A stretch of 51,950 nt of DNA from a virus: IMG/VR virus record IMGVR_UViG_3300020578_000114, positions 1 through 51,950 of that record; one strand, 5' to 3'. Position numbers and translations under genes: made by a program. The notes below the pieces were generated by a model. It saw only the letters and a list, made by a program, of their open reading frames with translations, was not told where the DNA came from and made no database searches. Positions 11,298 through 26,380 of the stretch are shown here, in pieces. Position 1 is the first letter of the stretch. Each line of letters starts with the position of its first letter.

Positions 11298-12215
11298 ATG
11301 ACATTGAAGACGATGAGCTTCCGCGCGTTCACCCGCGCGAGGCACCAGCTGTGGCTCGAGAGGGCCTACGGCGCGAAGGCGCCCAAGGAGGCGGACGCGC
11401 TGCGGCCGCACCACTACACTAACCTCTGGCGCGAGCTCGACCGCGGCACGGTGTTCCTGTTCAACGAGGTGCAGCGGCCGCGCCTGCACGACAGGCCCGA
11501 GCTGATCAGGCACACCATCCTCTACCGCATCTTCAACGTGCGGGAGACGTACGAAGACGTATGCTTTCGGTTCGGCAACCACCTCCATAGGGGCGTTACC
11601 GCGGAAAATCTATACGAGTTCCTCTCCTCGCGGGACAAGAATTTCACGAACGCGTACGTGAGGTGCTGCGACCTGAGGCTCGTGTGCGAGCAGCTCGCCA
11701 ACCTCGATGGGCACCTGTACGACATCGGTTCCAGGCTCGAGTACGGCCAGGTCGACGAGGCCAGGGACGCGATCTCGCGGATCTACTCGTTCGGGGCCTT
11801 CACCGGCGACCAGCTAATGATGGACCTCTGCTGGGAGGGGGGCCCGTTCGCCGCGCGGTTCGCGCCGAAGTTCGGACCAGGCGCCCAGCGCGGCCTGGCC
11901 TACTGCATGGAGAACGGCTACGGCAACGTCAACCACCTGCTCAGGACCGGCCACGAGGAGATCCCCGAGGCGTCGCGCCCGACAGTCAACGGCCTCCCGA
12001 TAGCCTACGACCTGCGCACGCTCGAGCACACGCTGTGCGAGCTCTCAAAGCACGTGAAGTTCCAGACCCGCGGCGACCGCCAGGTCAAGATGCGGTCCTA
12101 CCGGCCCAGCGCGTCGCCGGTCGACCCGCTGCCGTTCGCCTGGGGCGCCCCGGAGGTAAGATCGACCGAAGCCGAAGCGCGCGAATGCTCTCGACCGATA
12201 CACGCCTCCGCCTAG
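11298..12215 (+). CDS. putative DNA-base hypermodification protein (aGPT-pyrophosphorylase-like)
   Basis: Encodes 305 residues. The pattern resembles the alpha-glutamyl/putrescinyl-thymine pyrophosphorylase and 5-hydroxymethyl-dU kinase helical-domain families described in phages with hypermodified DNA. Matching segments are NLWRELDRGT (42-51), ILYRIFN (74-80), GAFTGDQLMMDL (166-177) and GPGAQRGL (193-200). In those families the enzyme is proposed to displace pyrophosphate from a 5-pyrophosphomethyl base with an amine or amino acid. That assignment rests on recalled motifs, so the family call is tentative and the chemistry is inference. A GGGGTAAGTCCC motif precedes the start. The last 50 residues are low-complexity, and an internal -10-like box (12157) drives the next, overlapping gene. 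Confidence 0.45.
   Translation: MTLKTMSFRAFTRARHQLWLERAYGAKAPKEADALRPHHYTNLWRELDRGTVFLFNEVQRPRLHDRPELIRHTILYRIFNVRETYEDVCFRFGNHLHRGVTAENLYEFLSSRDKNFTNAYVRCCDLRLVCEQLANLDGHLYDIGSRLEYGQVDEARDAISRIYSFGAFTGDQLMMDLCWEGGPFAARFAPKFGPGAQRGLAYCMENGYGNVNHLLRTGHEEIPEASRPTVNGLPIAYDLRTLEHTLCELSKHVKFQTRGDRQVKMRSYRPSASPVDPLPFAWGAPEVRSTEAEARECSRPIHASA
12157..12162 (+). promoter_or_regulatory. class B -10-like box (TAAGAT)
   Basis: GAGGTAAGATCGACC within the end of the 11298 gene; the box ends 22 nt before ATG 12185. Confidence 0.45.
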
Positions 12216-12496
12216 AGGCCATCGCGGCCCGCATCGTCGGCCACGAGGAGGTCACCTTCGAGGAGATGACCTTCATCCAGAAGTGGGCGGACCATAATAG
12301 GCACGCGGCCAAGATCCTCAACCAAGCGCGGCGGGAGTCAATCCAGGGAAAGCCTGAGCCGGGCTCCATGGACGAGTTCCTCAACGACCTCGACCTTGGA
12401 GACCCGGACCCCCACAACCACCTGATCGGGCCGCAGGACCCCATCGACCTGGCGAGGTGGTTCACGCAGCCCGACAGCTGGTTCAACCAAGATTGA
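12185..12496 (+). CDS. hypothetical acidic protein
   Basis: Encodes 103 residues: a helical N-terminal half (RLRLEAIAARIVGHEEVTFEEMTFIQKWADH) and an acidic, proline-rich second half (MDEFLNDLDLGDPDPHNHL, ending QPDSWFNQD). It overlaps the 11298 gene by 31 nt in another frame and is preceded by TAAGAT at 12157. The family is not recognised. Confidence 0.65.
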   Translation: MLSTDTRLRLEAIAARIVGHEEVTFEEMTFIQKWADHNRHAAKILNQARRESIQGKPEPGSMDEFLNDLDLGDPDPHNHLIGPQDPIDLARWFTQPDSWFNQD

Positions 12497-12512
12497 AGAC
12501 ACGACTAAAACA

Positions 12513-13172
12513 ATGAGCACCAAACTAACTGACTTCGAGCTGCCCGGCGAGCCCGGGCTCGAGGGCGACGTGACCTACACGTCCATCGTGGAGGACGAGT
12601 TCTGCAAGCTGGAGCTCAACGAGCGGCTAGTCCGCGTTTACGGCGTGACCGGCTACGCGAGGGGCGACGACGGCCGCGAGGTCGGCGTGTACATCCGGGG
12701 CACGCTCATCAGCTCCCCGGGCAACAACGGGATGCGCATCGTCAAGCTCATCTCGGCCCCCGACATGGACGGCGGCGAGGCGCGTTCGACCCGCTTCCTC
12801 TGCTCCGAGCGGCTGACCCCCAAGATCATCCGCTTCGGGGGGTCCGTCGAGGTCGGCGGGCGCGAGGTCGGCTTCCTGTACGAGGGCTTCGACGACGGGT
12901 CGGGCGACTGGTACCCGATCGAGGTCGAGGGCGAGGAGAGCTGCCGCGTGATCGGCACCCGCTGGAAGATGCTGGCGGCCGACGGCGACGACGGGAGCGA
13001 CGTCCTGCACGTCCTCTCGCTCAACTCCATGGAGTGGACCCGCATCCACACGGGCATGGCCCTCCCGAAGAAGATCACAAACATCCACCACATCGACAAT
13101 TCATACAAGATCTCCGGCGAGTTCAGCAACGGCGCCGAGTTCGAGGTGACATATGTCGACGAGAGCATCTAA
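12513..13172 (+). CDS. hypothetical beta-rich protein
   Basis: Encodes 219 residues dominated by predicted strands (RLVRVYGVTGYARGDDGREV, MRIVKLISAPDMDGG, REVGFLYEGFDDGSGDWYP, FEVTYVDESI), with a DNSYKISGEFSNGAEF hairpin near the end. Acidic overall. No ribosome-binding site is visible. The family is not recognised. Confidence 0.7.
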   Translation: MSTKLTDFELPGEPGLEGDVTYTSIVEDEFCKLELNERLVRVYGVTGYARGDDGREVGVYIRGTLISSPGNNGMRIVKLISAPDMDGGEARSTRFLCSERLTPKIIRFGGSVEVGGREVGFLYEGFDDGSGDWYPIEVEGEESCRVIGTRWKMLAADGDDGSDVLHVLSLNSMEWTRIHTGMALPKKITNIHHIDNSYKISGEFSNGAEFEVTYVDESI

Positions 13173-13184
13173 CGCTGGAGCAGC

Positions 13185-13286
13185 ATGACCGACCCCGTCT
13201 GGCCGCTCATAGCCTTCATCGGCGTTGGGCTGCTGTTCGTCGTCGGGGTGATAGCGGCGATCATCATCGAGGCGACGAACGAGTGA
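13185..13286 (+). CDS. 33-residue single-pass membrane peptide
   Basis: MTDPVWPL followed by about 20 hydrophobic residues (IAFIGVGLLFVVGVIAAIII) and EATNE. It fills the space between the 12513 gene and a class A promoter. It is very short, so support is modest. Confidence 0.45.
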   Translation: MTDPVWPLIAFIGVGLLFVVGVIAAIIIEATNE

Positions 13287-13288
13287 CG

Positions 13289-13347
13289 GCCGGGAAACCG
13301 GCACGAGAAAGGTCCCCGAGGGGCCCCTCTCCCCGTATGATGGATAC
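13289..13347 (+). promoter_or_regulatory. class A-like promoter with GAAA hairpin (leaderless arrangement)
   Basis: GCCGG-GAAA-CCGGC forms a perfect tetraloop hairpin (13289-13302). A GAGGGGCCCCT palindrome shared with the 2420 promoter follows, then TATGAT (13336-13341) 6 nt before ATG 13348. The upstream ACACCATTTCAACCGG block is replaced by CACGAGAAAGG. Confidence 0.55.
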
Positions 13348-14436
13348 ATGCGAAACGAATCCGTCCTATACCTCGAGCGCTGGCTCAACCAGCACGGGCT
13401 GCTGGCCCTGGCCGACCACGGCGTCCGCGTGACGTCCGACGCCCGCTATCCGGGCCTCCACTGCCTGAAGTACGGCCCGACGGCCGACAAGTCCTCCCGC
13501 ATCGTGCAGGTGTGCCGCGGCGCCGTCGTCGAGCTCGACGAGGCGGACGGCCACCGCGTGGTCGCCTACGCGTTCGACCGGTTCTTCAACGCCGGCGAGG
13601 CGCAGGCAGCCGAGATCGACTGGGACGCGGCGCGCGTCTTCGAGAAGCACGACGGCAGCCTGATCAAGCTGTTCCACCACGACGCGCACGGCTGGATCGT
13701 GTCGACGTCCGGGACCGTCGGGGCGGACATCCGCTTCGGCGAGATGGACATGACGTTCGAGCAGCTGTTCTGGCGCGCTTTCGCCAACTGCAACTACTCC
13801 CGCGAGCTGCTCCACGAGGGTACGGTCTACGTCTTCGAGCTGTGCACGCCCGAGAACAAGGTGGTCGTCGACCACAAGTTCGACCGCCTGCCGCTGCTGG
13901 CGGCGCGCGACGCCCGGACGATGGAGGAGATCTACGCGGAGTCCTTCTCCGGGGTCTTCGACATTGCGACCGAGCACGGCGCGTGGAGCAACCTCGACGG
14001 GCTGGTCGAGTGGGCGAACGAGCGCAAGGGCTCCGAGCACGAGGGCTTCATCGTCGTCGACGCCAACTGGAACCGCATCAAGGTGAAGGGCGAGTCGTAC
14101 GTGCAGATGCACCGCGTCAAGGGCAACGGCGACCCGAGCTTCTTCGAGCTGTGGCGGAACGACGACCTCGTCGAGTTCTGGACCTATTTCCCGGAGTACC
14201 GCGAGCGGTTCCAAAAGTTGCTGTCCCGCGTCGAGGACGCGGCGTTCTTCGTCGAGGGCTTCGTGCGCGAGTACTCGCACATGGACCAGAAGTCGTTCGC
14301 GGCGCAGGTCATGCACCACCACCCCAAGGTGAGCGGCGCCATGTTCTCGATCCGCGCCGGCAAGGTCGGCGGGTTCGTCGAGTGGCTGATGCAGCAGAAT
14401 GAGAAGAAGTTCGAGCAGGTCTTCGGCGATGCGTGA
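13348..14436 (+). CDS. RNA ligase (T4 Rnl1-like)
   Basis: An ATP-dependent RNA ligase that adenylates a lysine, transfers AMP to a 5'-phosphate RNA end and seals it to a 3'-OH. Rnl1-type features are CRGAVVEL (56-63) and FDRFFN (76-81) upstream of the nucleotidyl-transferase motif I EKHDGSLIK (99-107, adenylated Lys100). Motif III-like YVFELCTPENK (161-171), motif IV EGFIVVD (232-238) and motif V RIKVKGESY (243-251) follow. Length (362 residues) matches Rnl1 (about 370). It starts 6 nt after a TATGAT box, so it is probably leaderless. The next gene is a metallophosphoesterase 15 nt downstream. In T4 this ligase rejoins tRNAs cut by host anticodon nucleases; the nearby tRNA array and kinase/phosphatase genes suggest the same role. 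Confidence 0.9.
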   Translation: MRNESVLYLERWLNQHGLLALADHGVRVTSDARYPGLHCLKYGPTADKSSRIVQVCRGAVVELDEADGHRVVAYAFDRFFNAGEAQAAEIDWDAARVFEKHDGSLIKLFHHDAHGWIVSTSGTVGADIRFGEMDMTFEQLFWRAFANCNYSRELLHEGTVYVFELCTPENKVVVDHKFDRLPLLAARDARTMEEIYAESFSGVFDIATEHGAWSNLDGLVEWANERKGSEHEGFIVVDANWNRIKVKGESYVQMHRVKGNGDPSFFELWRNDDLVEFWTYFPEYRERFQKLLSRVEDAAFFVEGFVREYSHMDQKSFAAQVMHHHPKVSGAMFSIRAGKVGGFVEWLMQQNEKKFEQVFGDA

Positions 14437-14451
14437 GGACAGCAGTTGACC

Positions 14452-15075
14452 ATGATCCGCTTCATCGGCGACGTCCACGGGAAGTGGAAGCAGTACAAGC
14501 GCATTATCGGGGACTGCGACCGCTCCGTGCAGGTCGGCGACTTCGGCGTCGGCTTCTACAACCCGCGGACCGACACCTACACCTCCCCGCCGTACGACCA
14601 CATGCGGCGGGGCGACCACAAGTTCATCAGAGGCAACCATGATAACCCCGCGCGCTGCCGCTCTCACCCGTTTTGGATCCCCGATGGCACGCTTCTTGAG
14701 GGCCGCGTCTTCTGCGTGGGAGGCGCTGGCTCGATCGACAAGCACCTCCGCACGGAGGGCTGGGACTGGTGGCCGGACGAGGAGCTCAGCTACTCGCAGT
14801 TCCTCGAACTCCTTCGGGCGTACGAGGAGGCGAGGCCGAGCGTTGTCGTCTCTCACGACTGCCCTGAGAAGATGGTCGAGGCCGTCCTGAGGAGCAAGGG
14901 CAAGTACAAGTACGACATCCCGAGCATCACGAGGCAGTTCTTCGAGAACCTGCTGCACGTCCACCGGCCGGACGTCTGGATCCACGGCCACTGGCACCTG
15001 GACCACCACACCGTCTTCGAGGGCGTCGAGTACATCGGCCTCGGGGAGCTCTCACACCTGGACCTGGAGGTCTGA
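14452..15075 (+). CDS. metallophosphoesterase next to RNA ligase
   Basis: A calcineurin-type binuclear-metal phosphoesterase of 207 residues. All core motifs are present: GDVHG (6-10), GDFG (29-32), GNHD (61-64), SHD (134-136) and HGHWH (178-182). The substrate cannot be read from sequence. Its position directly after the RNA ligase suggests RNA-end healing (removal of a 2',3'-cyclic phosphate or 3'-phosphate before ligation), as in bacterial Pnkp. A general protein or nucleotide phosphatase is the alternative. ATG 14452 is preferred over TTG 14446. The stop overlaps the next start (TGATG). Confidence 0.85.
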   Translation: MIRFIGDVHGKWKQYKRIIGDCDRSVQVGDFGVGFYNPRTDTYTSPPYDHMRRGDHKFIRGNHDNPARCRSHPFWIPDGTLLEGRVFCVGGAGSIDKHLRTEGWDWWPDEELSYSQFLELLRAYEEARPSVVVSHDCPEKMVEAVLRSKGKYKYDIPSITRQFFENLLHVHRPDVWIHGHWHLDHHTVFEGVEYIGLGELSHLDLEV

Positions 15076-15257
15076 TGGACACCATACACAAGGCGCTGTA
15101 CGCCGCCGACCACTTCCAGATGACGGCCAAGCAGCAGCTCTGGGGCGACGTTTACCGCTGCGCCTTCTACAGGTGGAAGGCCTCCGGCTACCAGTCGGAG
15201 GGCGACTACGCCACGATGGCCGCGGCTCTCGGGCTGGGCGACCGGTTCTGGGAGTGA
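15075..15257 (+). CDS. hypothetical protein
   Basis: Encodes 60 residues, helical with many aromatics (DTIHKALYAADHFQMTAKQQL, RCAFYRWKASGYQSEGDY). It is coupled to the metallophosphoesterase by a TGATG overlap, so it may act with the RNA-repair genes. The family is not recognised. Confidence 0.65.
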   Translation: MDTIHKALYAADHFQMTAKQQLWGDVYRCAFYRWKASGYQSEGDYATMAAALGLGDRFWE

Positions 15258-15290
15258 CACGGGAGCCCCCTCACGCACCCGCCGCGCGGG

Positions 15291-15296
15291 CACAAT
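15291..15296 (+). promoter_or_regulatory. class B -10-like box (CACAAT)
   Basis: CACAAT follows a GC-rich inverted repeat (CCCGC...GCGGG) and ends 23 nt before ATG 15320. A similar hairpin plus CACAAA sits before the peroxiredoxin gene at 8375. Confidence 0.3.
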
Positions 15297-15319
15297 CACC
15301 ACAGGAAACAACCACATCG

Positions 15320-15718
15320 ATGCGAAACAGCGAAGCTCAGTTCTTCATCACCGCCGGCCTGCTGGGGGCCATCGTCATCGCTGGCCTGGCCTTCGGGCTG
15401 CCGCAGTACGGCGTCTACACGAAGACCCTGAACGGCAAGGCGCAGCTGCAGGAGGCCGAGTTCACCCGCCAGGTGGCGGTGCTCGAGGCCAAGGCCAAGC
15501 TCGACTCCGCGAAGGAGCTGGCGCAGGCCGAGGTCGAGCGCGCCAAGGGCGTCGCCCAGGCCAACCAGATCATCGGCGACAGCCTCAAGGGCAACCGCGA
15601 GTACCTCCAGTACCTGTACATCACCGGCCTCGAGGAGGGCAGCCAGAAGGGCAACGTGACGATCTACGTGCCCACCGAGGGCGGCATGCCCGTGCCCACG
15701 CTGCAGATGAACAAGTGA
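15320..15718 (+). CDS. stomatin/prohibitin-like membrane protein
   Basis: Encodes 132 residues. A membrane anchor at about 9-27 (FITAGLLGAIVIAGLAFGL) precedes a short linker and a long charged helix rich in Ala, Glu and Lys (LQEAEFTRQVAVLEAKAKLD, then AKELAQAEVERAKGVAQANQ). It ends in a beta-like segment NVTIYVPTEGGMPVP. This is the C-terminal layout of SPFH (stomatin/prohibitin/HflK) proteins without the full SPFH domain, a form seen in other large phages. It would oligomerise on the inner face of the membrane. A role in shielding phage proteins from the FtsH protease is conceivable but unproven. Confidence 0.7.
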   Translation: MRNSEAQFFITAGLLGAIVIAGLAFGLPQYGVYTKTLNGKAQLQEAEFTRQVAVLEAKAKLDSAKELAQAEVERAKGVAQANQIIGDSLKGNREYLQYLYITGLEEGSQKGNVTIYVPTEGGMPVPTLQMNK

Positions 15719-15933
15719 GCGACCTAGAGATCATCGCCCCTCCCGGCTTCACCCAGGAGGAGTTCGAGAGGATGCTCGAGGACCACATCGCCAGGTCCAT
15801 GTTCGACGCGATCATCAGCTACCTGAAGAAGACCGCCGACACAATGGACAAGTGCGGGCTGCGGAGCATGACGGCGGACGACCTCCGCCGCGTCGCGCTC
15901 GAGATGACCACGCAAGGCTACGAACCGCAATGA
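15715..15933 (+). CDS. hypothetical protein, GTG start
   Basis: Encodes 72 residues with GTGA overlap to the stomatin-like gene. Helical and acidic (TQEEFERMLEDHIARSMFDA, then DDLRRVALEMTTQGYEPQ). The C-terminal part resembles a short regulatory helix pair. The family is not recognised. Confidence 0.65.
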   Translation: MSDLEIIAPPGFTQEEFERMLEDHIARSMFDAIISYLKKTADTMDKCGLRSMTADDLRRVALEMTTQGYEPQ

Positions 15934-16139
15934 CGGGATACACCTTCGAGGTATGGGTTGACCATACGATGGAAAAAGCCGACGGTCGCGCGATCTACGT
16001 CGCGCGGGTGACAGACCCATTCGGCTTGCTGGTGGGGGAGGTGAGGAGCCTCTCCGAGGACACGACGCTGAGACTAGCTAATGAGCTTAAGAAGAGAGAC
16101 AGCGGCCGCTACGCCACCGACCACGGCCTCTGCGCCTGA
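15930..16139 (+). CDS. hypothetical protein
   Basis: Encodes 69 residues from ATG 15930, which overlaps the previous stop (ATGA). Beta-rich start (TGYTFEVWVDHTMEKADGR) and helical end (DTTLRLANELKKRDSGRYA). The family is not recognised. Confidence 0.6.
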   Translation: MTGYTFEVWVDHTMEKADGRAIYVARVTDPFGLLVGEVRSLSEDTTLRLANELKKRDSGRYATDHGLCA

Positions 16140-16149
16140 CTTCGAGCGG

Positions 16150-16275
16150 ATGGACGAGCTCTGGCACACGATCCAGGACGTCGGGCTGACCGGCATGTCC
16201 ACCGACGAGCTCGAGGAGTGGACGTACCTCATGGCGAGGAGCCTCGAGGGCAAGAGTAACGGGCCGATCCGCTAA
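16150..16275 (+). CDS. small acidic hypothetical protein
   Basis: Encodes 41 residues (DELWHTIQDVGLTGMSTDEL...). ATG 16150 is preferred because it follows the previous stop by 10 nt. The frame is open from ATG 16081, but that stretch reads like an out-of-frame copy of the preceding gene. The family is not recognised. Confidence 0.45.
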   Translation: MDELWHTIQDVGLTGMSTDELEEWTYLMARSLEGKSNGPIR

Positions 16276-16330
16276 GCGCACACCATTCCGGCCGCGGGAC
16301 TCACGGGCGCGATACGATACAGGTATCGAG
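16275..16330 (+). promoter_or_regulatory. class A promoter variant
   Basis: AGCGCACACCATTCCGGCCG matches the first part of the class A block. TACGAT at 16313-16318 is followed by ACAGGTATCGAG, similar to ACTTGTATCGAA after the copy at 17117. Here a leader of about 25-30 nt would precede ATG 16349. Confidence 0.5.
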
Positions 16331-16348
16331 CCTCAAGAGAAAACAACG

Positions 16349-17068
16349 ATGAACGACTACACAGGACCAGCCCCGCCGCGCGAGCAGCGGGGCGTTTTAC
16401 TTACCGACCACGACCTGGACGAGCGCTCCGTCGTGGTGATCGGCGACGTGCACGGCTGCGCGCAGGCGCTGCGGGACCTCCTCACCGAGGTCGTGCACAC
16501 CGGCTGCCAGGTCGTCTTCGTCGGCGACCTCATGGACCGCGGCGGGCAGTTCAGGTCCGTGCTCACGATCGTGCACGGGATGTGCACCGACCCCGCGAGC
16601 TGGGGCGTCACGAGCGCCGTCTGCCTCATGGGCAATCACGAGCGCATGATGCTCGACGCCTACTCCGGCGCGCGGGACGACGCGTGGAGGCTGTGGATGA
16701 GGAACGGCGGTTTCGTAGAAGACTTCCAGTACGTCAGCGATTCCGCCCGCTGGGGCTGGCTGAACGGCCTCCCGACCTGGTACGAGCACCCGAAACGGGT
16801 TTCCTGGGAGGGAGAGGCCTTGCGGCTACTGGTCACCCACGGGTCGGTCGAGCCCGGCGTGCCGCTGGGGCGCCAGGACCCCGAAACGCTGTACTGGGGC
16901 AGGCGGGTCGCGGGCTACTCCCGTGACCACCTGACCGTCAACGGCCACACGATCTGCCGCGAGGGCGAGCCCCTGCAGTACGAGACCGAGACCGGCAAGG
17001 TGGTCCGGATCGATACGGGCTCCTACATGACCGGCATCGTGACCGGGCTGGCCCTGAGGGAGACGTGA
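16349..17068 (+). CDS. PPP-type metallophosphatase (lambda phosphatase-like)
   Basis: Encodes 239 residues with the phosphoprotein-phosphatase signature: GDVHG (32-36), GDLMDRGG (59-66), GNHE (95-98), VTHG near residue 164 and VNGHT near 195. Lambda-type phosphatases remove phosphate from Ser/Thr, Tyr or His residues. The same fold makes the 2',3'-phosphatase domain of bacterial Pnkp. It has its own class A promoter and lies upstream of the polynucleotide kinase, so both protein dephosphorylation and RNA-end healing are possible. The 30-residue N-terminal extension is proline-rich and probably disordered. Confidence 0.85.
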   Translation: MNDYTGPAPPREQRGVLLTDHDLDERSVVVIGDVHGCAQALRDLLTEVVHTGCQVVFVGDLMDRGGQFRSVLTIVHGMCTDPASWGVTSAVCLMGNHERMMLDAYSGARDDAWRLWMRNGGFVEDFQYVSDSARWGWLNGLPTWYEHPKRVSWEGEALRLLVTHGSVEPGVPLGRQDPETLYWGRRVAGYSRDHLTVNGHTICREGEPLQYETETGKVVRIDTGSYMTGIVTGLALRET

Positions 17069-17079
17069 CAGCCGGGAAA

Positions 17080-17128
17080 GCGCACACCATTTCGACCGGA
17101 GGGCGCCCGGGCGGCCTATGATACTTGT
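17080..17128 (+). promoter_or_regulatory. class A promoter, copy before the kinase operon
   Basis: GCGCACACCATTTCGACCGG, GGGCGCCC palindrome, then TATGAT (17117-17122) followed by ACTTGT. The predicted start at about 17129 lies 10 nt upstream of ATG 17139, so the leader would be very short rather than absent. Confidence 0.65.
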
Positions 17129-17138
17129 ATCGAAACGA

Positions 17139-17345
17139 ATGAGACAAGTGACCGTCCAAATCCCCGCCTACGTCAAGAACGCCCGCCGCGCCGAGAAGCT
17201 CGCGGCCGACGAGTTCTGGGCCTACCACGCCGAGATCGCCGGCAAGAAGCCGGTCGACGCGAAGTACCGCACCCTGCAGCGCCGCATGGCGGCCGCAGCC
17301 GAGCGCCGCGTCGAGGCCGTCCGCGAGTTCACGGCCGCCCTCTGA
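17139..17345 (+). CDS. small basic protein upstream of polynucleotide kinase
   Basis: Encodes 68 residues from ATG 17139 (RQVTVQIPAYVKNARRAEKL...), highly basic and helical (Arg/Lys/Ala-rich), suggesting nucleic-acid binding. The stop overlaps the kinase start (TGATG), making it the first gene of the kinase-phosphatase operon under a class A promoter. The family is not recognised. Confidence 0.65.
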   Translation: MRQVTVQIPAYVKNARRAEKLAADEFWAYHAEIAGKKPVDAKYRTLQRRMAAAAERRVEAVREFTAAL

Positions 17346-17785
17346 TGCTAATCGCGCACGTGATGGTCGGGGCCCCGGGCTCCGGCAAGTCGACGGCGGG
17401 CGCCCGCCTCGCCGAGCTCTTCGACTCCGTCGTGGTGTCCACCGACGCTGTCCGCGGCGACCTGTGGGGCGACGAGTCCGTCCAGGGCGACTGGGCCGAC
17501 GTCTCGCGCGAGGTCGAGCGGAGGGTCCGCTGCGCCGCCGCTGGCGGCCGGAACGTCGTCCTCGACGCCACCCACGCCAAGCGCTCGTACCGCCGCCGCG
17601 CGGCCGAGATGCTCCGAGCCGCCGGGTACGACGAGATCGTCCCCGTGCTCGCCCACCCGCCCCTGGAGACCTGCCTCGAGCGCAACGCCGGCCGCGGCCG
17701 CGTGGTCCCCGCCGGCGTCGTCGAGCGCATGTGGCTCTCGATCGAGCAGAACAAGCAATCCATACAAGAGGACTTCAACAAGTGA
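17345..17785 (+). CDS. polynucleotide 5'-kinase (Pnkp kinase-domain type)
   Basis: A P-loop kinase of 146 residues. Walker A GAPGSGKST (9-17), STDAVRGDLWGD (32-43), VVLDATH (71-77) and the lid-type LERNAGRGRVV (111-121) match in order and spacing the kinase domain of bacterial Pnkp. That domain phosphorylates 5'-OH RNA ends during RNA repair. Here the kinase is a stand-alone protein, and its stop overlaps the start of a metallophosphatase (GTGA). This gives the kinase-phosphatase order of Pnkp as separate proteins. Together with the Rnl1-like ligase it would supply end-healing for cleaved tRNA. A kinase for another polyol or nucleotide substrate of the same AAA_33-like group is possible. Confidence 0.8.
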   Translation: MLIAHVMVGAPGSGKSTAGARLAELFDSVVVSTDAVRGDLWGDESVQGDWADVSREVERRVRCAAAGGRNVVLDATHAKRSYRRRAAEMLRAAGYDEIVPVLAHPPLETCLERNAGRGRVVPAGVVERMWLSIEQNKQSIQEDFNK

Positions 17786-18474
17786 CCGAAACGTACCTGA
17801 TAGGCGACGTGCACTCGCAGGCCGACGAGCTCGGCAGGGCGCTCGAGTACGTGCTGGCCAGCGGCGGGCAGAGCGCTCGCGTGATCTTCCTGGGCGACCT
17901 GTTCGACTCCCGGTGTGAGACGTCCTGCTCGGCGGCGGTCTACAAGACCGTGAGGCGGTTCCAGGACGAGCACGGCGCCGTCGTGCTCAACTCCAACCAC
18001 CAGGACAAGCTCCGGCGCTACCTTTCGGGCTCGCCCGTGCGCGTCGACCTCGTCCCCGAGCTCGGCCGTACCATCCAAGAGTTCCAGCAGTCCGACGTCT
18101 GCCGCGACGAGCTGCTCCGCTGGCTCGAGTCGTGCCCCTACGGCTACGTGTTCCACGACGCCTCGGGCCGCGAGTACCGCTGCGCCCACGCCTACTTCCC
18201 CAGCTGGGTCGAGCCGGACGGCGCCACGGTCACCGGCGAGGGCTTGCCACGCAAGGCCCGGGACCTCATGCTCTACGGCAAGCGCGACCACGAGACCAAG
18301 CAGAGGGTCCGCTGGTGGGAGCAGGAGAGCAGCGTGCCCTGGACCCGCGTGTCCGGCCACTACCACTGCGTCCACACGAGCCGCGAGTCACTCGTGCTCG
18401 ACGGCCAGTGCGGCAACGAGGGCGGCCGCCTGCCGGTCTACCAGGTGAACGCCGCGCGCCTCACGTACTTCTGA
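17782..18474 (+). CDS. metallophosphatase (Pnkp phosphatase-domain-like)
   Basis: Encodes 230 residues from GTG 17782, overlapping the kinase stop. Motifs: IGDVHS (7-12), GDLFDSR (38-44), NSNHQDKLRRYLSG (70-83), a C-terminal CAHAYF and SGHYH. The NHQDKLRRYLSG segment resembles the GNHD-K-L-RYL-G signature of bacterial Pnkp 2',3'-phosphatase domains, although Gln replaces the usual Asp/Glu and Ser the Gly. It would remove 2',3'-cyclic phosphate or 3'-phosphate ends before ligation. The pairing with the kinase is the main support for this substrate. Activity may differ because of the altered NHE/NHD motif. Confidence 0.75.
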   Translation: MTETYLIGDVHSQADELGRALEYVLASGGQSARVIFLGDLFDSRCETSCSAAVYKTVRRFQDEHGAVVLNSNHQDKLRRYLSGSPVRVDLVPELGRTIQEFQQSDVCRDELLRWLESCPYGYVFHDASGREYRCAHAYFPSWVEPDGATVTGEGLPRKARDLMLYGKRDHETKQRVRWWEQESSVPWTRVSGHYHCVHTSRESLVLDGQCGNEGGRLPVYQVNAARLTYF

Positions 18475-18480
18475 TCGGCG

Positions 18481-18486
18481 TAAAAT
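18481..18486 (+). promoter_or_regulatory. class B -10-like box (TAAAAT)
   Basis: GGCGTAAAATCAC just after the phosphatase stop; the box ends 25 nt before ATG 18512. Confidence 0.45.
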
Positions 18487-18511
18487 CACAACAGGTACCA
18501 AGGCGAGCCAC

Positions 18512-19090: not shown

Positions 19091-19108
19091 CGAGGCGGAG
19101 TAAGTTCG

Positions 19109-19747
19109 ATGTCGGAAACCAACCCAGACCAGCAGAATTCCTCCAGCCCGTACACGTACGAGGGCTGGCTCATCCAGGAGCAACTCCCAACCCAATGGCA
19201 CATCCTAGTCGCGGCGATACTCCTAAACCAGAGCAAAAGGACCCCGGCGTGGGACGGAACGCTCTACGAACTGTTCTCGCGGTGGTCAAGCCCCTCCTCC
19301 CTCGCATCCGCTGACGGTGGGCTCGAGGCCCTGCTGACCCCGCAGGGCTTCGCAAACGTTAAAGCCAAGCGCCTCCGGCGGATGTCGGAGGAGTACCTGT
19401 CCTGGGACCACCAGGACGCTAGAGTCCTCTACGGTTGCGGGCAGTACGCCTACGACTCGTGGAGGATCTTCGTCCGCGGGGACAGGCCGCAGCCATCCAA
19501 AATCAAGGACGGGGTCCTAGTCAAGTTCCTGGAACGGCACCATGCGGGATGGCGAATTGGATCACCTCTACCACCGATGGTCGGGGATAGCGTGGGAGCG
19601 TGGTCGGCTGCAAGAGTTCGAGACCCTCTACCGCTCCTACAGACTGATGTGCTGGTCGAGGCGCGAGTGCGTCCTAAAGGCGGCCTGCGACATGAACTTA
19701 CCGGGGCGCCCGTAGGCGCACGATCGATAAAACCACTGCGAGCATGA
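19109..19747 (+). CDS. MBD4-like HhH-GPD DNA glycosylase
   Basis: The first 150 residues match the glycosylase domain of MBD4: WHILVAAILLNQSK (30-43), the LTPQGFANVKAKRLRRMSEEYL stretch (76-97) and the helix-hairpin-helix LYGCGQYAYDSWRIF (107-121), with catalytic Asp116. Such enzymes excise T, U or 5-hydroxymethyl-U opposite G, the products of deaminated 5-modified cytosine. This fits the dCMP-type thymidylate synthase homologue downstream. A base-hypermodification role, as proposed for some phage HhH proteins, is the alternative. After about residue 148 the reading frame loses GC-rich third positions while another frame (19542-19715) gains them. The natural C-terminus may therefore be shorter or reached by a frameshift. 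The stop does overlap the next ATG. Confidence 0.75.
   Translation: MSETNPDQQNSSSPYTYEGWLIQEQLPTQWHILVAAILLNQSKRTPAWDGTLYELFSRWSSPSSLASADGGLEALLTPQGFANVKAKRLRRMSEEYLSWDHQDARVLYGCGQYAYDSWRIFVRGDRPQPSKIKDGVLVKFLERHHAGWRIGSPLPPMVGDSVGAWSAARVRDPLPLLQTDVLVEARVRPKGGLRHELTGAPVGARSIKPLRA
19542..19715 (+). CDS. overlapping frame within the glycosylase gene
   Basis: Encodes 57 residues (RDGELDHLYHRWSGIAWERG...), basic and aromatic, with strong GC at third codon positions where the 19109 frame has lost it. It is either a separate small gene read from ATG 19542 or the true C-terminal part of the glycosylase reached by a +1 shift. No slippery sequence is obvious, so a genuine frameshift mutation is also possible. 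Confidence 0.4.
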   Translation: MRDGELDHLYHRWSGIAWERGRLQEFETLYRSYRLMCWSRRECVLKAACDMNLPGRP

Positions 19748-20592: not shown

Positions 20593-20992
20593 CATCAGGA
20601 ACCTCGAGAGCTGGGCGTCGGAGACCGTCACCGAGAACCGGCGCCTCGGCGAGCTGAAGATGCAGGCGGGCCACGCCATCGTCGACGCCCTCGAGTCGTA
20701 CTACGCGCAGTGGCAGACCAAGCGCACCGACCGCGTGCGCAACGAGTACATGAAGTGGCGCGTCCGCCTGCACCGCAAGTGGAACGACCACCCCTCGTTC
20801 CTCGAGGAGCTCGACGAGGCGTTCAACATAGGGCTGAACGACGACGCGATAGGTAAAACCCTCTGGGATATTCCAGCGGAAGACTCCGTAAATCTCTCGA
20901 ATGGCTACAACTGGCGACGCGACTCCGGCTACGCCCTCCGCGGCAGGAACCGCAAGCAGCAGCCAGCCGCTGCTCCAGATCTGGCGCAGTGA
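20585..20992 (+). CDS. hypothetical helical protein
   Basis: Encodes 135 residues, helical and rich in Trp and Arg (LESWASETVTENRRLGELKM, YEYAQ-like YYAQWQTKRTDRVRNEYMKW). The last 35 residues are low-complexity and overlap the next gene by 92 nt in another frame. It starts 8 nt inside the previous gene. The family is not recognised. Confidence 0.6.
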   Translation: MNDIRNLESWASETVTENRRLGELKMQAGHAIVDALESYYAQWQTKRTDRVRNEYMKWRVRLHRKWNDHPSFLEELDEAFNIGLNDDAIGKTLWDIPAEDSVNLSNGYNWRRDSGYALRGRNRKQQPAAAPDLAQ

Positions 20993-21152
20993 GCACATCG
21001 ACCAGTACAGGTGGGTCCTGAGCTTCGGCCCGGGAGACGCAGATCTGTTCCACGGCAACGCCACGTCCCTCGAGCAAGCGATGGGGGACATCGAGCACTG
21101 CCGCAGGATCCACGAGGGGACGGCCCGGGAAGCGGCCGCTGCGGCGCCCTGA
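20901..21152 (+). CDS. hypothetical protein
   Basis: Encodes 83 residues: an Ala/Thr/Ser-rich N-terminus, then LLQIWRSEHIDQYRWVLSFG and a His-Cys helix (MGDIEHCRRIHEGTAREAA). A TAAAAC box (20854-20859) lies upstream inside the preceding gene. The long overlap makes the exact start uncertain. The family is not recognised. Confidence 0.5.
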   Translation: MATTGDATPATPSAAGTASSSQPLLQIWRSEHIDQYRWVLSFGPGDADLFHGNATSLEQAMGDIEHCRRIHEGTAREAAAAAP

Positions 21153-21168
21153 GGCCCCGTCCCCGCGC

Positions 21169-21174
21169 TAGGAT
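21169..21174 (+). promoter_or_regulatory. class B -10-like box (TAGGAT)
   Basis: GCGCTAGGATAGATTG; the box ends 23 nt before ATG 21198. Confidence 0.4.
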
Positions 21175-21197
21175 AGATTGTTCCTACGGGTCACTCA

Positions 21198-21365
21198 ATG
21201 GACTACATCGACGCGGCGGTCGACAGGATCCACCACCTGGTGGACCGGGCCGACGAGCTGTACGACGCCTACATGGATGTCGAGGCCGCGCTGCTGCTCG
21301 AGCAGGCGCTCGAGATCGCCCAGTCCATCCGGGAGCCCGCGCGCACCCCGGCCCTCGCCGCATAA
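21198..21365 (+). CDS. small helical protein before DNA polymerase
   Basis: Encodes 55 residues (DYIDAAVDRIHHLVDRADEL...), a predicted helical hairpin with heptad-like Leu/Ala spacing. Its TAA stop (21363-21365) is also the first half of the TAAGAT box of the polymerase gene. The family is not recognised. Confidence 0.55.
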   Translation: MDYIDAAVDRIHHLVDRADELYDAYMDVEAALLLEQALEIAQSIREPARTPALAA

Positions 21366-21368
21366 GAT
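21363..21368 (+). promoter_or_regulatory. class B -10-like box before DNA polymerase (TAAGAT)
   Basis: GCATAAGATACAC overlaps the previous stop codon and ends 22 nt before ATG 21391. Confidence 0.5.
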
Positions 21369-21390
21369 ACACTTGAACAAAACCTATCAG

Positions 21391-24297
21391 ATGGCAACGT
21401 CTATGAAGCTGAACGAGCAAGGCTACCCCGTCCTCGACGACGGGTTGCACCGCAAGCTCTTCGGCTCGGCACGCCGCCCCGCCCCCAAGAGCTCCACGCT
21501 CGAGAGGACGAGGCGGCTTCTTAGTAGGTTCGAGATCCCGACGCCGGTCGACTACCCGGACGGGATGTACGACGGCGACCTGCCGTTCCCCGAGCTGATC
21601 GGCGGGTCGATCGAGGCGCACTTCGAGGCCATGGCCGGCGAGTTCGTCGACGACTACAAGGCGCTCGCCGGCGCCTTCGCCGAGTCGAGGCTGCCCGAGG
21701 TCCCCGGCTACGACGACTTCGTCTTCCGGCCCGGGTGGACCCGCTACACCGTGGCCGACGGCCAGTGGGTCACCGAGGAGGTCCCACACCCGCTCGAGCG
21801 GGCGTTCACGTACGACACGGAGACCTTCGTCACCGGTGGGGCGTTCCCCGTCATCGGCACCGCCCTGTCAGCGGAGGCGGCGTACGTGTGGCTCGCGGCA
21901 GAGATGTGCGACCCCACGCTGCCGGTCGAGGGCTGGACACAGCACGACCTCATTCCCCTAGGCAAGGGCAACTTCGTCGTCGGCCACAACGTCTCGTACG
22001 ACCGCGTGCGCGCCCGCGACGGCTACACCCTCGCCGAGACCGAGCCGGAGAACTTCTACTTCGACACGCTGTCGGCCCACATCGCCGTGTCGGGGCTGGC
22101 GTCGGGCCAGCGCTGGCTCTACGTCCTGGCCGGCAAGGACCCCGAGGCGCTGACCGAGGAGGAGCGGAAGAAGCTGCGGTTCCGCCCGCGCTGGGCGGAC
22201 GAGGGCGCGACCAACTCCCTGGTCAACGTCTACAACTTCCACGTCGCCGCCGTGCGCGAGTACTTCGGGCAGGACGTTCACCGCATGGAGGACGCCGACA
22301 AGGAGATCCGCGACGTCTTCGTGAAGGCAACCGAGATGCACCAGCTGGCGAACCGCCGCGACCTGCTCGAGTACGCCATGCTCGACGCCTTCTACACGAC
22401 TGAACTGTTCCAGGCCATCTGGCCGAAGTACCTCGACTCGACCCCGTCTAAGGTCGCCCTGGCCGGCCACATGTTCCTCAACGGCTCACGCATCCCCACA
22501 CCGACCGACTGGCCGCGGTGGATCGGGCAGGTCGAGGAGGTGTTCGCGGAGTACAACCGCGAGATGTCGGACATCTGCCACGCGCTGATCGGCAAGTACG
22601 TCGACGAGTGGCGCGAGCTCCTCGACCAGGACGTCGCCGGCGTGCAGGCCAAGCTCGACTCCGACGACCGGCAGCGGCTGCTCGAGCGGCTCGCGCTCGA
22701 CAAGAAGAAGACCGTCAAGATCAACGACGTCCTGAAGGCGCTCGACAAGGCGCAGATCGAGTGGCGCAAGCGCTCCGACCGCTGGGTGGCCCGCGACCCG
22801 TGGCTGAACCAGCTCGACTGGGCGCCCCGGAACTACGCCGGCAAGTACGCCTACATGCCGAATTGGGCCAGCAAGTACCTCGCCGACGACTCCGAGCGCA
22901 TCACCAACAAGGCCAACGTCTCGCACCTGCTGCTCAAGCTCAAGTGGGAGGGCACGCCCGTGATCCTCACGAAGTCCGACGGCTGGTGCTTCCACAGCGA
23001 GGAGGGCAAGCTCGAGAAGGTCCCGCACCCGAAAGGCAACGGCGACAACGTGGGCGTGCTCCTGTCCAAGGACTTCCTCGTCGACATGGAGAACGGCCGC
23101 CTTAGCAGCGACCTGCCCGAGGCCAAGCGCGCGCTCGACATCGCGAACGCCACATCTTACTGGACGTCCGTCCGCAAGCGCGTGCACGACCGGATCTTCA
23201 TGGATGTGGAGAACCCCCACGGCGAGGGCTGGTGCATGATGATGCCGGAGATCATCGCCCACGGCGCCGTGACGCGCCGCACGGTCGAATCGCTCATGGT
23301 CACCATGTGCTCGACCAAGGGCCACCGCATCGGCACCGAGCTGAAGACCCGCATTCAGTGCCCGCCCGGCTGGAAGATCGTCGGCGCCGACTTCGACGGC
23401 CAGGAGCTGCAGATCGCCAGCATCTACGCCGACGCCTGGGAGGGCGGCTTCATCGGCGCGTCGCCGATGGCCCACACCGTGCTCTCCGGCTCGAAGGAGA
23501 AGGGCACCGACGCGCACACGAAGCTCGCGAAGGCCATCGACACCAACCGCGACGTCGCCAAGGGCGTCGGCTTCGCCATGCTCTACGGCGCCGGCGTGAG
23601 GACGATCGCCAACACCATCAAGAAGACGTACAAGGACCGGAGCGCCACCGAGCTGCGCCAGTTCGGCAACCGGGCGCTCGCGTTCAAGAAGGGCAAGAAG
23701 ACGCCCGACGGCTACTACGAGGGCGGCAGCGACAGCGGCTGCTACAACTTCATGGAGGGCATCGCGCTCCGGACCAAGTGCCCGACGCTGCCCTGCCTCG
23801 GGACCAAGATCTCGACGGCCCTGCGGCCCTCCGCGGTCGGCGACGACTTCCACACCGGCCGCATCAACTGGACGATCCAGTCCAGCGGCGCCGAGATGCT
23901 GGCCGTGATCCTCACGGCTACCCACTGGCTGGCCCGGTGCTTCCAGATCCCCGCCCAGTTCATCCTCAGCATCCACGACGAGCTGTGGTGGATGGTGCCC
24001 GAGCGCTACGCCGAGAGCTTCTGCGTCGTCTTCCAGATGGCCCACCTGTACTCCTGGGCGCGCTTCCAGGCCGGCGTCGGCATGTGCGACGTGCCGCTGA
24101 GCCGGGCGTTCTTCTCGTCTGTGGCGATCGACGAGCGGCTGAGGAAGTCGGTGTGCGAGTGCACCAGGACCCCGTCCAACCCGGGCGGCGGCGATGAGCC
24201 CGACGGGGCCGAGTACTCGATGGCCCAGATGGCCGAGCTGGGCTGGGTGAAGAAGCTCCGGACGCGGGGCGAGATGATCGCGAAGGGGCTCATTTGA
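21391..24297 (+). CDS. family A DNA polymerase of the mitochondrial POLG type
   Basis: The replicative polymerase, 968 residues, with 3'-5' exonuclease and polymerase domains. Exonuclease motifs: YDTETF (Asp142/Glu144), VVGHNVSYDR and YAMLDAFYTTELF. Polymerase motif A is GADFDGQELQIAS (Asp667), motif B RDVAKGVGFAMLYGAG and motif C SIHDELWW (Asp863). Several segments match animal DNA polymerase gamma rather than E. coli Pol I or T7: VVGHNVSYDR, the TLxGxKxKGTDxH-like GSKEKGTDAHTKLA, QSSGAEML, and the C-terminal FFSSVAIDERLRKSV with TPSNPGG. A spacer of about 200 residues lies between the domains, as in POLG. No 5'-3' exonuclease or separate accessory subunit is seen. Contractile-tail phages often carry family B enzymes, so this is notable. 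Confidence 0.93.
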   Translation: MATSMKLNEQGYPVLDDGLHRKLFGSARRPAPKSSTLERTRRLLSRFEIPTPVDYPDGMYDGDLPFPELIGGSIEAHFEAMAGEFVDDYKALAGAFAESRLPEVPGYDDFVFRPGWTRYTVADGQWVTEEVPHPLERAFTYDTETFVTGGAFPVIGTALSAEAAYVWLAAEMCDPTLPVEGWTQHDLIPLGKGNFVVGHNVSYDRVRARDGYTLAETEPENFYFDTLSAHIAVSGLASGQRWLYVLAGKDPEALTEEERKKLRFRPRWADEGATNSLVNVYNFHVAAVREYFGQDVHRMEDADKEIRDVFVKATEMHQLANRRDLLEYAMLDAFYTTELFQAIWPKYLDSTPSKVALAGHMFLNGSRIPTPTDWPRWIGQVEEVFAEYNREMSDICHALIGKYVDEWRELLDQDVAGVQAKLDSDDRQRLLERLALDKKKTVKINDVLKALDKAQIEWRKRSDRWVARDPWLNQLDWAPRNYAGKYAYMPNWASKYLADDSERITNKANVSHLLLKLKWEGTPVILTKSDGWCFHSEEGKLEKVPHPKGNGDNVGVLLSKDFLVDMENGRLSSDLPEAKRALDIANATSYWTSVRKRVHDRIFMDVENPHGEGWCMMMPEIIAHGAVTRRTVESLMVTMCSTKGHRIGTELKTRIQCPPGWKIVGADFDGQELQIASIYADAWEGGFIGASPMAHTVLSGSKEKGTDAHTKLAKAIDTNRDVAKGVGFAMLYGAGVRTIANTIKKTYKDRSATELRQFGNRALAFKKGKKTPDGYYEGGSDSGCYNFMEGIALRTKCPTLPCLGTKISTALRPSAVGDDFHTGRINWTIQSSGAEMLAVILTATHWLARCFQIPAQFILSIHDELWWMVPERYAESFCVVFQMAHLYSWARFQAGVGMCDVPLSRAFFSSVAIDERLRKSVCECTRTPSNPGGGDEPDGAEYSMAQMAELGWVKKLRTRGEMIAKGLI

Positions 24298-24473
24298 CCA
24301 AACTCGAACGGGCTATCGACGCCCTCTACCGCGGGCGCTGCAACCTGATCCAGGCCTGCCAGCTGGCCGAGGTCGACCAGGACACGATGAAGCGCTTCCT
24401 CCTCGACAAGGTGCACTGCACCCCGACCCACCCCATCCAACTGACCCTAGACCTCCGGAGCCCAGAGCCATGA
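24294..24473 (+). CDS. small protein after DNA polymerase, TTG start
   Basis: Encodes 59 residues (TKLERAIDALYRGRCNLIQA...), with TTGA overlapping the polymerase stop and the next ATG overlapping its own stop. The LIQACQLAEVDQDTMKRFLL segment resembles a short helix-turn-helix. The function is unknown. Confidence 0.55.
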   Translation: MTKLERAIDALYRGRCNLIQACQLAEVDQDTMKRFLLDKVHCTPTHPIQLTLDLRSPEP

Positions 24474-24646
24474 GCAAGAAGAAGGCGCACTTCTACACCC
24501 TGACCGAGCTGGCGTCCAACCGCCCGTACGCCACCATCGAGTTCTACGACCACAAGGAGCGGCGCATGCTGAGCTCCGTGGACGTGGTCCTCAACATGGC
24601 GTACCATGACGCTTCGTCGATCGCACAGTTCGTGGCATCACGATGA
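24470..24646 (+). CDS. small hypothetical protein
   Basis: Encodes 58 residues (SKKKAHFYTLTELASNRPYA...), a basic start, a beta strand (YATIEFYDHKERRML) and a helical end. Coupled on both sides by ATGA. The family is not recognised. Confidence 0.55.
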   Translation: MSKKKAHFYTLTELASNRPYATIEFYDHKERRMLSSVDVVLNMAYHDASSIAQFVASR

Positions 24647-24657
24647 CCGCCGCGCTG

Positions 24658-24663
24658 TACAAT
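24658..24663 (+). promoter_or_regulatory. class B -10-like box (TACAAT)
   Basis: CTGTACAATAGCG; the box ends 21 nt before ATG 24685, supporting that start for the kinase gene. Confidence 0.35.
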
Positions 24664-24684
24664 AGCGACAGCACCCAACCCACC

Positions 24685-25254
24685 ATGCTCATCATCGTCT
24701 CGGGGCCGGACCGCGTCGGCAAGTCGACCCTGATCAACGCCATGGCCGAGGAGCTCGGCGCCGCCGACACCTACGTCGCCCACCACGGCCCGCCGCCCAC
24801 GGCCAACGAGAACATCTTCGACGTGTACCGCGACACGATCCAGGACTGGAAGTGGTCGCAGAAGCCGTACGCGATCTTCGACCGCGCGTACCCCTGCAGC
24901 TACATCCTCGAGCAGCACCGCCGCCGCAACGCCGGCCACTTCGAGGACGTGATCGACTTCGAGATCGAGCTGGCCGACGCCGTCGACTCGGTCGTGCACC
25001 TCGGCGTCTTCCGGCCCTGGCACTGGTCCGCGCCGCTCCACGTCGAGGAGGTCCGCGACGAGAACCCGGGCGCGGCCCTCTGGTACGTCCGCGACGAGTA
25101 CATCGCCCGCATGCAAGAGCACCAGATCTACACCGAGCAGCTCCTCAACTTCTACGACAACATCACCATGTTCCCCAACGCCCGCATGGAGAACGAGGAC
25201 ACCGACGCCCAGCTGGCCATCGCCAAGTGCCGCGAGGCGCTGCGGAGGGGCTGA
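24685..25254 (+). CDS. P-loop nucleoside monophosphate kinase-like (dTMP kinase/T4 gp1 role)
   Basis: Encodes 189 residues. LIIVSGPDRVGKSTLINAMA carries the Walker A motif in the form typical of thymidylate kinases. The DR motif FDRAYPCSYILEQ resembles their FDRY/DRS segment, and ARMENEDTDAQLAIAKCREAL forms the C-terminal helix. It should phosphorylate a deoxynucleoside monophosphate. Its position two genes upstream of a dCMP-type thymidylate synthase homologue suggests it handles the modified dCMP, as T4 gp1 does for hydroxymethyl-dCMP. The start is chosen from a -10-like box at 24658; ATG 24643, overlapping the previous stop, would add 14 residues. Confidence 0.7.
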   Translation: MLIIVSGPDRVGKSTLINAMAEELGAADTYVAHHGPPPTANENIFDVYRDTIQDWKWSQKPYAIFDRAYPCSYILEQHRRRNAGHFEDVIDFEIELADAVDSVVHLGVFRPWHWSAPLHVEEVRDENPGAALWYVRDEYIARMQEHQIYTEQLLNFYDNITMFPNARMENEDTDAQLAIAKCREALRRG

Positions 25255-25469
25255 TGCCTTTCCCTATGCCGCAGGACCCGGGGTTCATGCTCGAGTACTG
25301 CAAGGAGTGGATCGACGACGCCAACTACCGGTACGATCACGGCATGAAGGCGATGGCACAGGAGAGCATCCGGTCGGCCGCGCAGCTCTACATCCAGCTC
25401 CCGCGCGGCTACAGCAACCCCGAGCTGGAAAAATACTACCAGGACACACTCAAGAAGGTCTACGGATGA
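25254..25469 (+). CDS. hypothetical protein between kinase and synthase
   Basis: Encodes 71 residues, helical (LEYCKEWIDDANYRYDHGMK, PELEKYYQDTLKKVYG). It overlaps both neighbours by TGATG and ATGA, so it is translated together with the nucleotide enzymes. The family is not recognised; a subunit of one of them is possible. Confidence 0.65.
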   Translation: MPFPMPQDPGFMLEYCKEWIDDANYRYDHGMKAMAQESIRSAAQLYIQLPRGYSNPELEKYYQDTLKKVYG

Positions 25470-26380
25470 CATTCGAACGGCGAATCAGGGAGATGACAGC
25501 GAAGCGCCAGCACGTGATCTCCTTCGGCGACCACGTGATCGCCAGCGACAACTGGGACTACGCGTACGGCGAGTACCTGTACGAGATCATGAACCACGGC
25601 GAGCGGTTCGACGGGCGCAACGGCGAGACGAAGGCCGCCTTCGGCTGCTCGGCCAAGGTCGACCTCCGCGCCGGCTTCCCGCTGACCCGCCTGCGGAAGA
25701 TGCCCTGGAAGAACCTCGTCCGCGAGTTCCTCTTCGACATCGGCTTCAACACCAACGTCGAGGCGCTCGGCCCGGCTAAGCACTTCTGGGACTTCCTCGC
25801 CGACGAGAACGGCGAGCTCGGCGCGTCGGCCTACTGCCGGCAGTGGCGCCAGTGGCCGCAATCGGCGCCCGGCGTCGAGGTGCCGAACGAGACGCTGGAG
25901 ACCGACCGCTCGGTCGACCAGCTGAAGGACGTGACGACGCTGCTCAACAACCAGCCGAACTCGCGGCAGGCGACGGTCATCACGCACAACCCGACGGCGA
26001 TCGACCCCGCCTGCCCGCCGTGCCACATCGCGATGCAGTTCATGCCCGCGAAGGACGGATGGCTCGACCTGATGGTGCCGGCCCGCTCCAACGACATGGT
26101 GGTCGGCTTCCCGCTCGACATCGCGCGGTACGCCCTGATGCTCAAGGTTGTTGCCGCGATGACCGACAAGGCCGCGCGCTTCGTCTACATGCCGAGCGCC
26201 AACTCGCACATCTACGAGAACTGCTACGATCTGGTCGACGAAATGCTGGAGCGCGAGCCGCGCCCCGAGTGCCAGGCCCGGATCAACGCGCAGCGCCTCT
26301 ACCTCAAGGACCTGGCGCTCGACGACTTCGAGCTCGAGGGCTACGACCCGCACCCCGCCATCAAGGTGGCGGTCAACTGA
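25466..26380 (+). CDS. thymidylate synthase-fold enzyme, probable dCMP (hydroxy)methylase
   Basis: Encodes 304 residues with the thymidylate synthase fold: GFPLTRLRKMPWKNLVREFL (70-89), TNVEALGPAKHFWDFLADENGELG, CRQWRQWP, DQLKDV and PNSRQATV. The catalytic cysteine lies in CPPCHIAMQF (Cys186), and RSNDMVVGFPLDIARYALM follows. In dUMP enzymes the last motif reads PFN, and that Asn selects uracil. Here it is PLD (Asp218), the change known from T4 dCMP hydroxymethylase. The likely product is therefore 5-hydroxymethyl-dCMP or 5-methyl-dCMP. The Trp in FWDF is kept, which leaves methyl versus hydroxymethyl open. The late GDxHIY motif is altered to SANSHIY. A kinase gene two places upstream would process the product. 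Confidence 0.8.
   Translation: MTFERRIREMTAKRQHVISFGDHVIASDNWDYAYGEYLYEIMNHGERFDGRNGETKAAFGCSAKVDLRAGFPLTRLRKMPWKNLVREFLFDIGFNTNVEALGPAKHFWDFLADENGELGASAYCRQWRQWPQSAPGVEVPNETLETDRSVDQLKDVTTLLNNQPNSRQATVITHNPTAIDPACPPCHIAMQFMPAKDGWLDLMVPARSNDMVVGFPLDIARYALMLKVVAAMTDKAARFVYMPSANSHIYENCYDLVDEMLEREPRPECQARINAQRLYLKDLALDDFELEGYDPHPAIKVAVN

Follow-up and report, generated by a model that had tools for sequence, protein, structure and literature searches.

A thymidylate synthase-fold enzyme of predicted dCMP specificity and a candidate cytosine modification pathway in an S-TIM5-like cyanophage

In bacteriophage T4, the thymidylate synthase-fold enzyme gp42 hydroxymethylates deoxycytidine monophosphate (dCMP) before replication, with the deoxynucleoside monophosphate (dNMP) kinase gp1 as its kinase partner. 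In this family Asp at position 177 (numbering of E. coli thymidylate synthase, used throughout) is described as the selector of dCMP, and hydroxymethylases also need, for water activation, an Asp three positions ahead of the catalytic Cys; the T4 D145N variant, altered at this position (143 in E. coli), makes no 5-hydroxymethyl-dCMP. An Asn177Asp substitution in ThyA is reported, as cited in PMC8670742, to switch preference to dCMP with formation of 5-methyl-dCMP, and in the MetaGPA survey of viromes thymidylate synthase domains with Asp177 were associated with modified cytosine (PMC8670742). The DNA of phage Xp12 is 100% 5-methylcytosine (5mC), while phages such as SP10, PhiW-14 and Microbacterium phage Clock encode HMUDK_hel proteins. 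Here we describe the virus record IMGVR_UViG_3300020578_000114 (51,950 bases, hereafter the window), which encodes a synthase of this fold, a P-loop kinase, an MBD4-like glycosylase and an HMUDK_hel protein (Table 1). The best explanation for this gene set, which we hold tentatively, is a pre-replicative C5 modification of dCMP in an S-TIM5-like cyanophage with a 5-hydroxymethyl product.

The synthase matches PF00303 (E = 9.7e-59) and retains Glu58, Cys146, Arg166 and Asp169 of the thymidylate synthase fold, the catalytic residue being Cys186 in the window protein. At the position of Asn177 it carries Asp218, and this Asp is invariant in every relative aligned, in the window lineage as well as in the S-TIM5 lineage (around 41% identity), as expected of dCMP-specific members of the family. 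The cofactor pocket is remodelled, with Leu, Cys, Ala and Leu at positions 83, 143, 165 and 176, respectively. ThyX is encoded by 11 of the 30 records searched, including five of the six longer than 135 kb (S-TIM5, S-TIM54 and the records G001, G014 and G020 are among the carriers), and a dCMP deaminase is present in most large records (G001, S-TIM5, S-TIM54 and others). As the near-complete relatives thus have their own route to thymidine monophosphate (dTMP), the ThyA-fold enzyme can be devoted to dCMP. The window synthase is most likely a dCMP enzyme, as a preliminary description of this DNA had proposed, and the annotation "ThyA" in S-TIM5 and S-TIM54 is probably wrong as to function. Because this key residue is accompanied by a kinase, a glycosylase and a hypermodification-type protein, 5-modified cytosine is probably present in the phage DNA, and the sequence gives good support to a pathway that modifies dCMP. 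The catalytic Cys lies within a near-invariant CPPC motif (CPGC in two relatives) and, speculatively, a disulfide formed there could turn the enzyme off under oxidising conditions.

The four proteins named in the preliminary description were all recovered, namely the synthase, the P-loop kinase two genes upstream of it, the MBD4-like protein with Asp116 and the HMUDK_hel protein (PF18723, E = 5.6e-24). Together they span 15 kb, and the neighbourhood that is conserved comprises only polymerase, kinase and synthase; in 13 of 14 relatives, a sample that is not random, fewer than about 300 bases separate kinase and synthase. The kinase matches PHROG 761 "thymidylate kinase" only weakly (1.8e-8), and the best folds for its predicted model are PPK2 and thymidylate kinases. 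T4 gp1, to which the kinase had been likened, is not among the best fold matches, and a relationship to it finds no support. The kinase probably phosphorylates the modified dCMP.

The sequence shows residues, gene content and conservation; the pathway that we infer from them extends to substrate and product, phosphorylation, the make-up of the DNA and a role in repair. Ahead of replication, the synthase would attach a one-carbon unit to dCMP at C5, Asp218 recognising the cytosine, the neighbouring kinase would raise the product towards the triphosphate, and the phage polymerase would insert the modified nucleotide opposite G. The product is somewhat more likely to be 5-hydroxymethyl-dCMP. The clade of enzymes making it would have arisen independently of T4 gp42, and the hydroxymethyl group, once in DNA, would be acted on by the HMUDK_hel protein. 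The dTMP would come from ThyX, supplied by the phage dCMP deaminase, and the MBD4-like enzyme would excise T or 5-hydroxymethyluracil opposite G after deamination.

Table 1. Features of the window considered in this work (TS, thymidylate synthase; aa, amino acids).
Feature	Coordinates	Strand	Remarks
2OG-Fe(II) (2-oxoglutarate and iron-dependent) oxygenase (PF13759)	8933..9520	+	not TET/JBP; context only
HMUDK_hel / aGPT-Pplase1-type DNA base hypermodification protein	11298..12215	+	DNA-glycosylase-like helical fold; ATG 11298 or 11313
MBD4-like HhH-GPD mismatch glycosylase	19109..19747	+	catalytic D116 in GCGQYAYDSW
Family A DNA polymerase with DNApol_Exo domain	21403..24297	+	mitochondrial-like, as for S-TIM5; adjoins the kinase upstream
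P-loop nucleotide kinase (TMPK/PPK2-like fold)	24643..25254	+	Walker A GPDRVGKST
Small open reading frame, 67 aa	25266..25469	+	between kinase and synthase
ThyA-fold dCMP-type synthase	25466..26380	+	C186 catalytic, CPPC motif; D218 = E. coli Asn177; C183 = E. coli Leu143; TS-like C-terminal tail; ATG 25466 or 25493

Several observations weigh against the hydroxymethyl product. The rule for position 143 holds in the enzymes checked, Asp being found in T4 gp42 and in SPO1 gp29, a true deoxyuridine monophosphate (dUMP) hydroxymethylase, with Leu in E. coli thymidylate synthase and Asn in the synthase of the 5mC-type Bosaviruses; in the window and in every member of its clade the residue is Cys rather than Asp or Glu. 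In a tree of 72 synthases, for which the program gave a long-branch warning and from which phage Y10 was left out, the clade pairs with canonical ThyA (100/99) and falls outside both the hydroxymethylases (93/81), including those of T4 and SPO1, and the Bosaviruses. His147 and the ThyA C-terminal tail are retained, the HMUDK_hel gene has, among the records of the clade searched, a counterpart in G001 alone, the nearest relative of the window, and the scanned parts of the window and its relative yielded no recognisable dCTPase, glycosyltransferase or further hypermodification enzyme. The likeness to the T4 pathway extends to the fold, the catalytic Cys, the Asp177-type recognition of cytosine, Asn at position 168 and a predicted pre-replicative route with a phage kinase, but not to Asp145, the tail, the clade or a recognisable glucosyltransferase. 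The preliminary description had read the Asn-to-Asp change as the mark of a hydroxymethylase; this reading is not supported, the change being a mark of cytosine specificity. Judged by its ancestry, its residue 143, His147 and the tail, the enzyme resembles a methylase that has changed over to cytosine. The MetaGPA contigs differ from the window in that they also differ at position 147, where the window keeps His, and some carry carbamoyltransferases, none of which was recognised among the proteins scanned here.

Since the signature of hydroxymethylation is absent, 5mC is a serious alternative, to which we assign a lower but still substantial probability. The pathway would be the same, with 5-methyl-dCMP as product and 5mC in the DNA as in Xp12, and the MBD4-like enzyme would repair T opposite G. 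Besides the retained ThyA features and the 5-methyl product reported for Asn177Asp ThyA, the Bosaviruses favour it, for which AXL1 and others served as stand-ins for Xp12 in gene comparisons. AXL1_65 is MBD4-like (match to MBD4 in the PDB, 1.1e-13) and lies two genes from an Asp177 synthase, with a dCMP deaminase and a dihydrofolate reductase (DHFR) next. This protein was reported as common, within the genus, only to AXL1 and Xp12; similar proteins were also found in DoCa6, YB23 and a Janthinobacterium phage. Synthase, glycosylase and deaminase are thus shared with the window group, whereas the Bosavirus synthase forms a separate clade with Asn at position 143, and AXL1 adds the DHFR and a nucleotide pyrophosphohydrolase and has no ThyX that could be found. 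The modification itself is demonstrated in Xp12 and suspected in AXL1.

The reductase is of consequence because ThyA-type methylation yields dihydrofolate, which DHFR must reduce, while hydroxymethylation returns tetrahydrofolate. No DHFR was found in the phage relatives of the window, and PF00186 was matched in none of 10 likely-host or related cyanobacterial genomes (Cyanobium, Synechococcus and others) with a positive S. elongatus control, where an unrecognised reductase outside PF00186 is possible. This differs from AXL1, with its DHFR beside the synthase cluster, and speaks against high-flux methylation, though it is not proof. Elsewhere, Aeromonas phage GomatiRiver_11 (OP967013.2, L315:295-1134) has a "thymidylate synthase" beside DHFR with Asp at position 177 and Leu at 143, and this enzyme of a T4-like phage is a candidate for a dCMP methylase.

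A methyl product would also leave the HMUDK_hel protein without a hydroxyl group. No TET/JBP oxygenase that could make 5-hydroxymethylcytosine (hmC) from 5mC was found in 19 records, by a search in which the controls gave no signal either. The HMUDK_hel protein itself retains the 16 family-invariant residues, and its AlphaFold model (mean predicted local distance difference test, pLDDT, 83.9), of a DNA-glycosylase-like fold, matches viral models labelled "5-hmdU DNA kinase helical domain" (5-hmdU, 5-hydroxymethyldeoxyuridine) and "aGPT pyrophosphorylase clade 1", which bears out the relationship suspected in the preliminary description; a sequence search of the PDB gave no match. Residues and fold are those of the HMUDK_hel phages, in which, wherever the synthase was read, the partner is an Asp143 hydroxymethylase rather than a Cys143 enzyme as in the window and G001. 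A scan of viral contigs with patterns derived from the proteins of the window and of Microbacterium phages located 49 HMUDK_hel loci, the synthase being readable in the flanks of 30 and elsewhere on the contig for 10. All 40 of these other contigs carry an Asp143 synthase, 16 with Asp177 (cytosine type) and 24 with Asn177 (uracil type), in a sample that is biased and contains near-copies; the nearest relatives of the window protein (47% identity) accompany the Asp143/Asp177 dCMP hydroxymethylase type. The family thus accompanies hydroxymethylpyrimidines, and its preservation in the window and G001 argues for hmC there. It is on this ground, together with the missing reductase and an Asn at position 168 as in hydroxymethylases, that we tentatively place 5-hydroxymethyl ahead of 5-methyl as the product.

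Two Microbacterium phages have gene arrangements of related interest. Clock (L149:3484-8787) clusters HMUDK_hel with a T4-like dCMP hydroxymethylase, a glycosyltransferase, a "thymidylate kinase" and a MazG-like gene, likely a cassette for hypermodified hmC, and Huwbert (L311) has tandem thymidylate synthase genes, gp67 and gp68, with a dCMP deaminase nearby. The remark in the preliminary description that it knew of no described phage set with this exact combination needs qualification, as partial sets exist, an Asp177 synthase with an MBD4-like protein in one cluster of AXL1 and HMUDK_hel with a T4-like dCMP hydroxymethylase in Clock.

The best PDB relatives of the window glycosylase are all MBD4 (2e-9), and it combines the HhH-GPD fold with a catalytic Asp in an MBD4-type motif. 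A simple gene caller skipped the reading frame, but 57-80% identity in relatives indicates a real gene. In the window lineage 5 of 12 records have it, compared with 2 of 16 in the S-TIM lineage, and there it sits upstream of the polymerase at a distance of around 1.5-1.7 kb in the window lineage. The role given to it earlier, guarding modified cytosine against deamination, is plausible but not specific: a ThyA-fold enzyme was found in none of the 39 longer records with MBD4-like genes, nearly all of them distant homologues, so the glycosylase alone is no mark of cytosine modification and was rejected as such. A C5-methyltransferase was likewise rejected as its general partner, being present in only 2 of 42 records. 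On environmental IMG/VR contigs (loci L076-L148) such glycosylases occur widely, in at least 531 stretches.

Cytosine nucleotides might also be altered for another end, such as a DNA modification that is only partial or local, a role in RNA, or the poisoning of host nucleotide pools, the MBD4-like protein then serving general G:T/G:U repair unrelated to the synthase. The breadth of the MBD4-like family and the 0 of 39 count are compatible with this, as is a bacterial defence study that names thymidylate synthase, dNMP kinase and 5hmdU kinase domains among its validated systems. Of the enzymes that the preliminary description had wanted sought in the rest of the genome, the dCMP deaminase is present in near-complete relatives, but no dCTPase or MazG (PF03819) was recognised in any relative, which would fit such another end; that search is uninformative, as it missed the annotated pyrophosphohydrolase of AXL1 too. 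Against such other ends, which we consider unlikely, stands a location next to the phage DNA polymerase that is conserved in the window lineage. An ordinary or relaxed thymidylate synthase that uses dUMP in vivo and leaves the virion DNA canonical is improbable, since, although canonical ThyA is closest in the tree and among PDB matches, Asp177 is invariant, the cofactor pocket is remodelled and near-complete relatives have ThyX.

The window is colinear with 27-79.5 kb of its relative G001 (149,878 bases), so that it represents part of a larger genome. The psbA of G001 is 95-98% identical to Cyanobium and Synechococcus copies, and for each of synthase, kinase and glycosylase the closest relatives among annotated phages belong to the S-TIM5 group of cyanophages. 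A mitochondrial-like DNA polymerase was reported for S-TIM5, to which the DNApol_Exo domain of the window polymerase corresponds. We infer a relative of S-TIM5 with a high-GC picocyanobacterial host. The Aurunvirus members S-TIM5 and S-TIM54 share with the window group the Asp177/CPPC ThyA-like enzyme, ThyX, dCMP deaminase and a related kinase, and S-TIM54 also the MBD4-like gene; they differ in a synthase only 41% identical, a kinase that is not adjacent and the lack of HMUDK_hel. Elsewhere in the window, an RNA ligase, a polynucleotide kinase (PNK)-like kinase and three metallophosphoesterases are grouped at 13348-18474, suggestive of an RNA repair set, and in G001 a 516-aa protein (115017-116567; L156:17517-19064) is the most likely source of a tryptophan halogenase match (2.5e-101) in a scan of a Pfam set.

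The analysis separates two features that are often merged, Asp177 selecting cytosine and Asp143 selecting hydroxymethyl, and among dCMP-specific enzymes of the family the CPPC clade is a new variant. It suggests that MBD4-like glycosylases accompany 5-modified cytosine, at the least in the 5mC phages of the Bosavirus group and in the two cyanophage lineages. It also leads to the expectation of modified cytosine in a widespread lineage of cyanophages, among them the cultured isolates S-TIM5 and S-TIM54, whose gene carries a thymidylate synthase annotation. A more doubtful possibility is that the CPPC clade is an independently evolved dCMP C5-modifying type, in which an extra Cys183 stands in place of the Leu (methylase) or Asp (hydroxymethylase) on which the outcome for the exocyclic methylene depends, with hydroxymethylation or another quenching, for example by a thiol, in hosts without DHFR. 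If this is true, the CPPC type together with ThyX, an MBD4-like guard and HMUDK_hel would constitute a cytosine modification so far undescribed in cyanophages.

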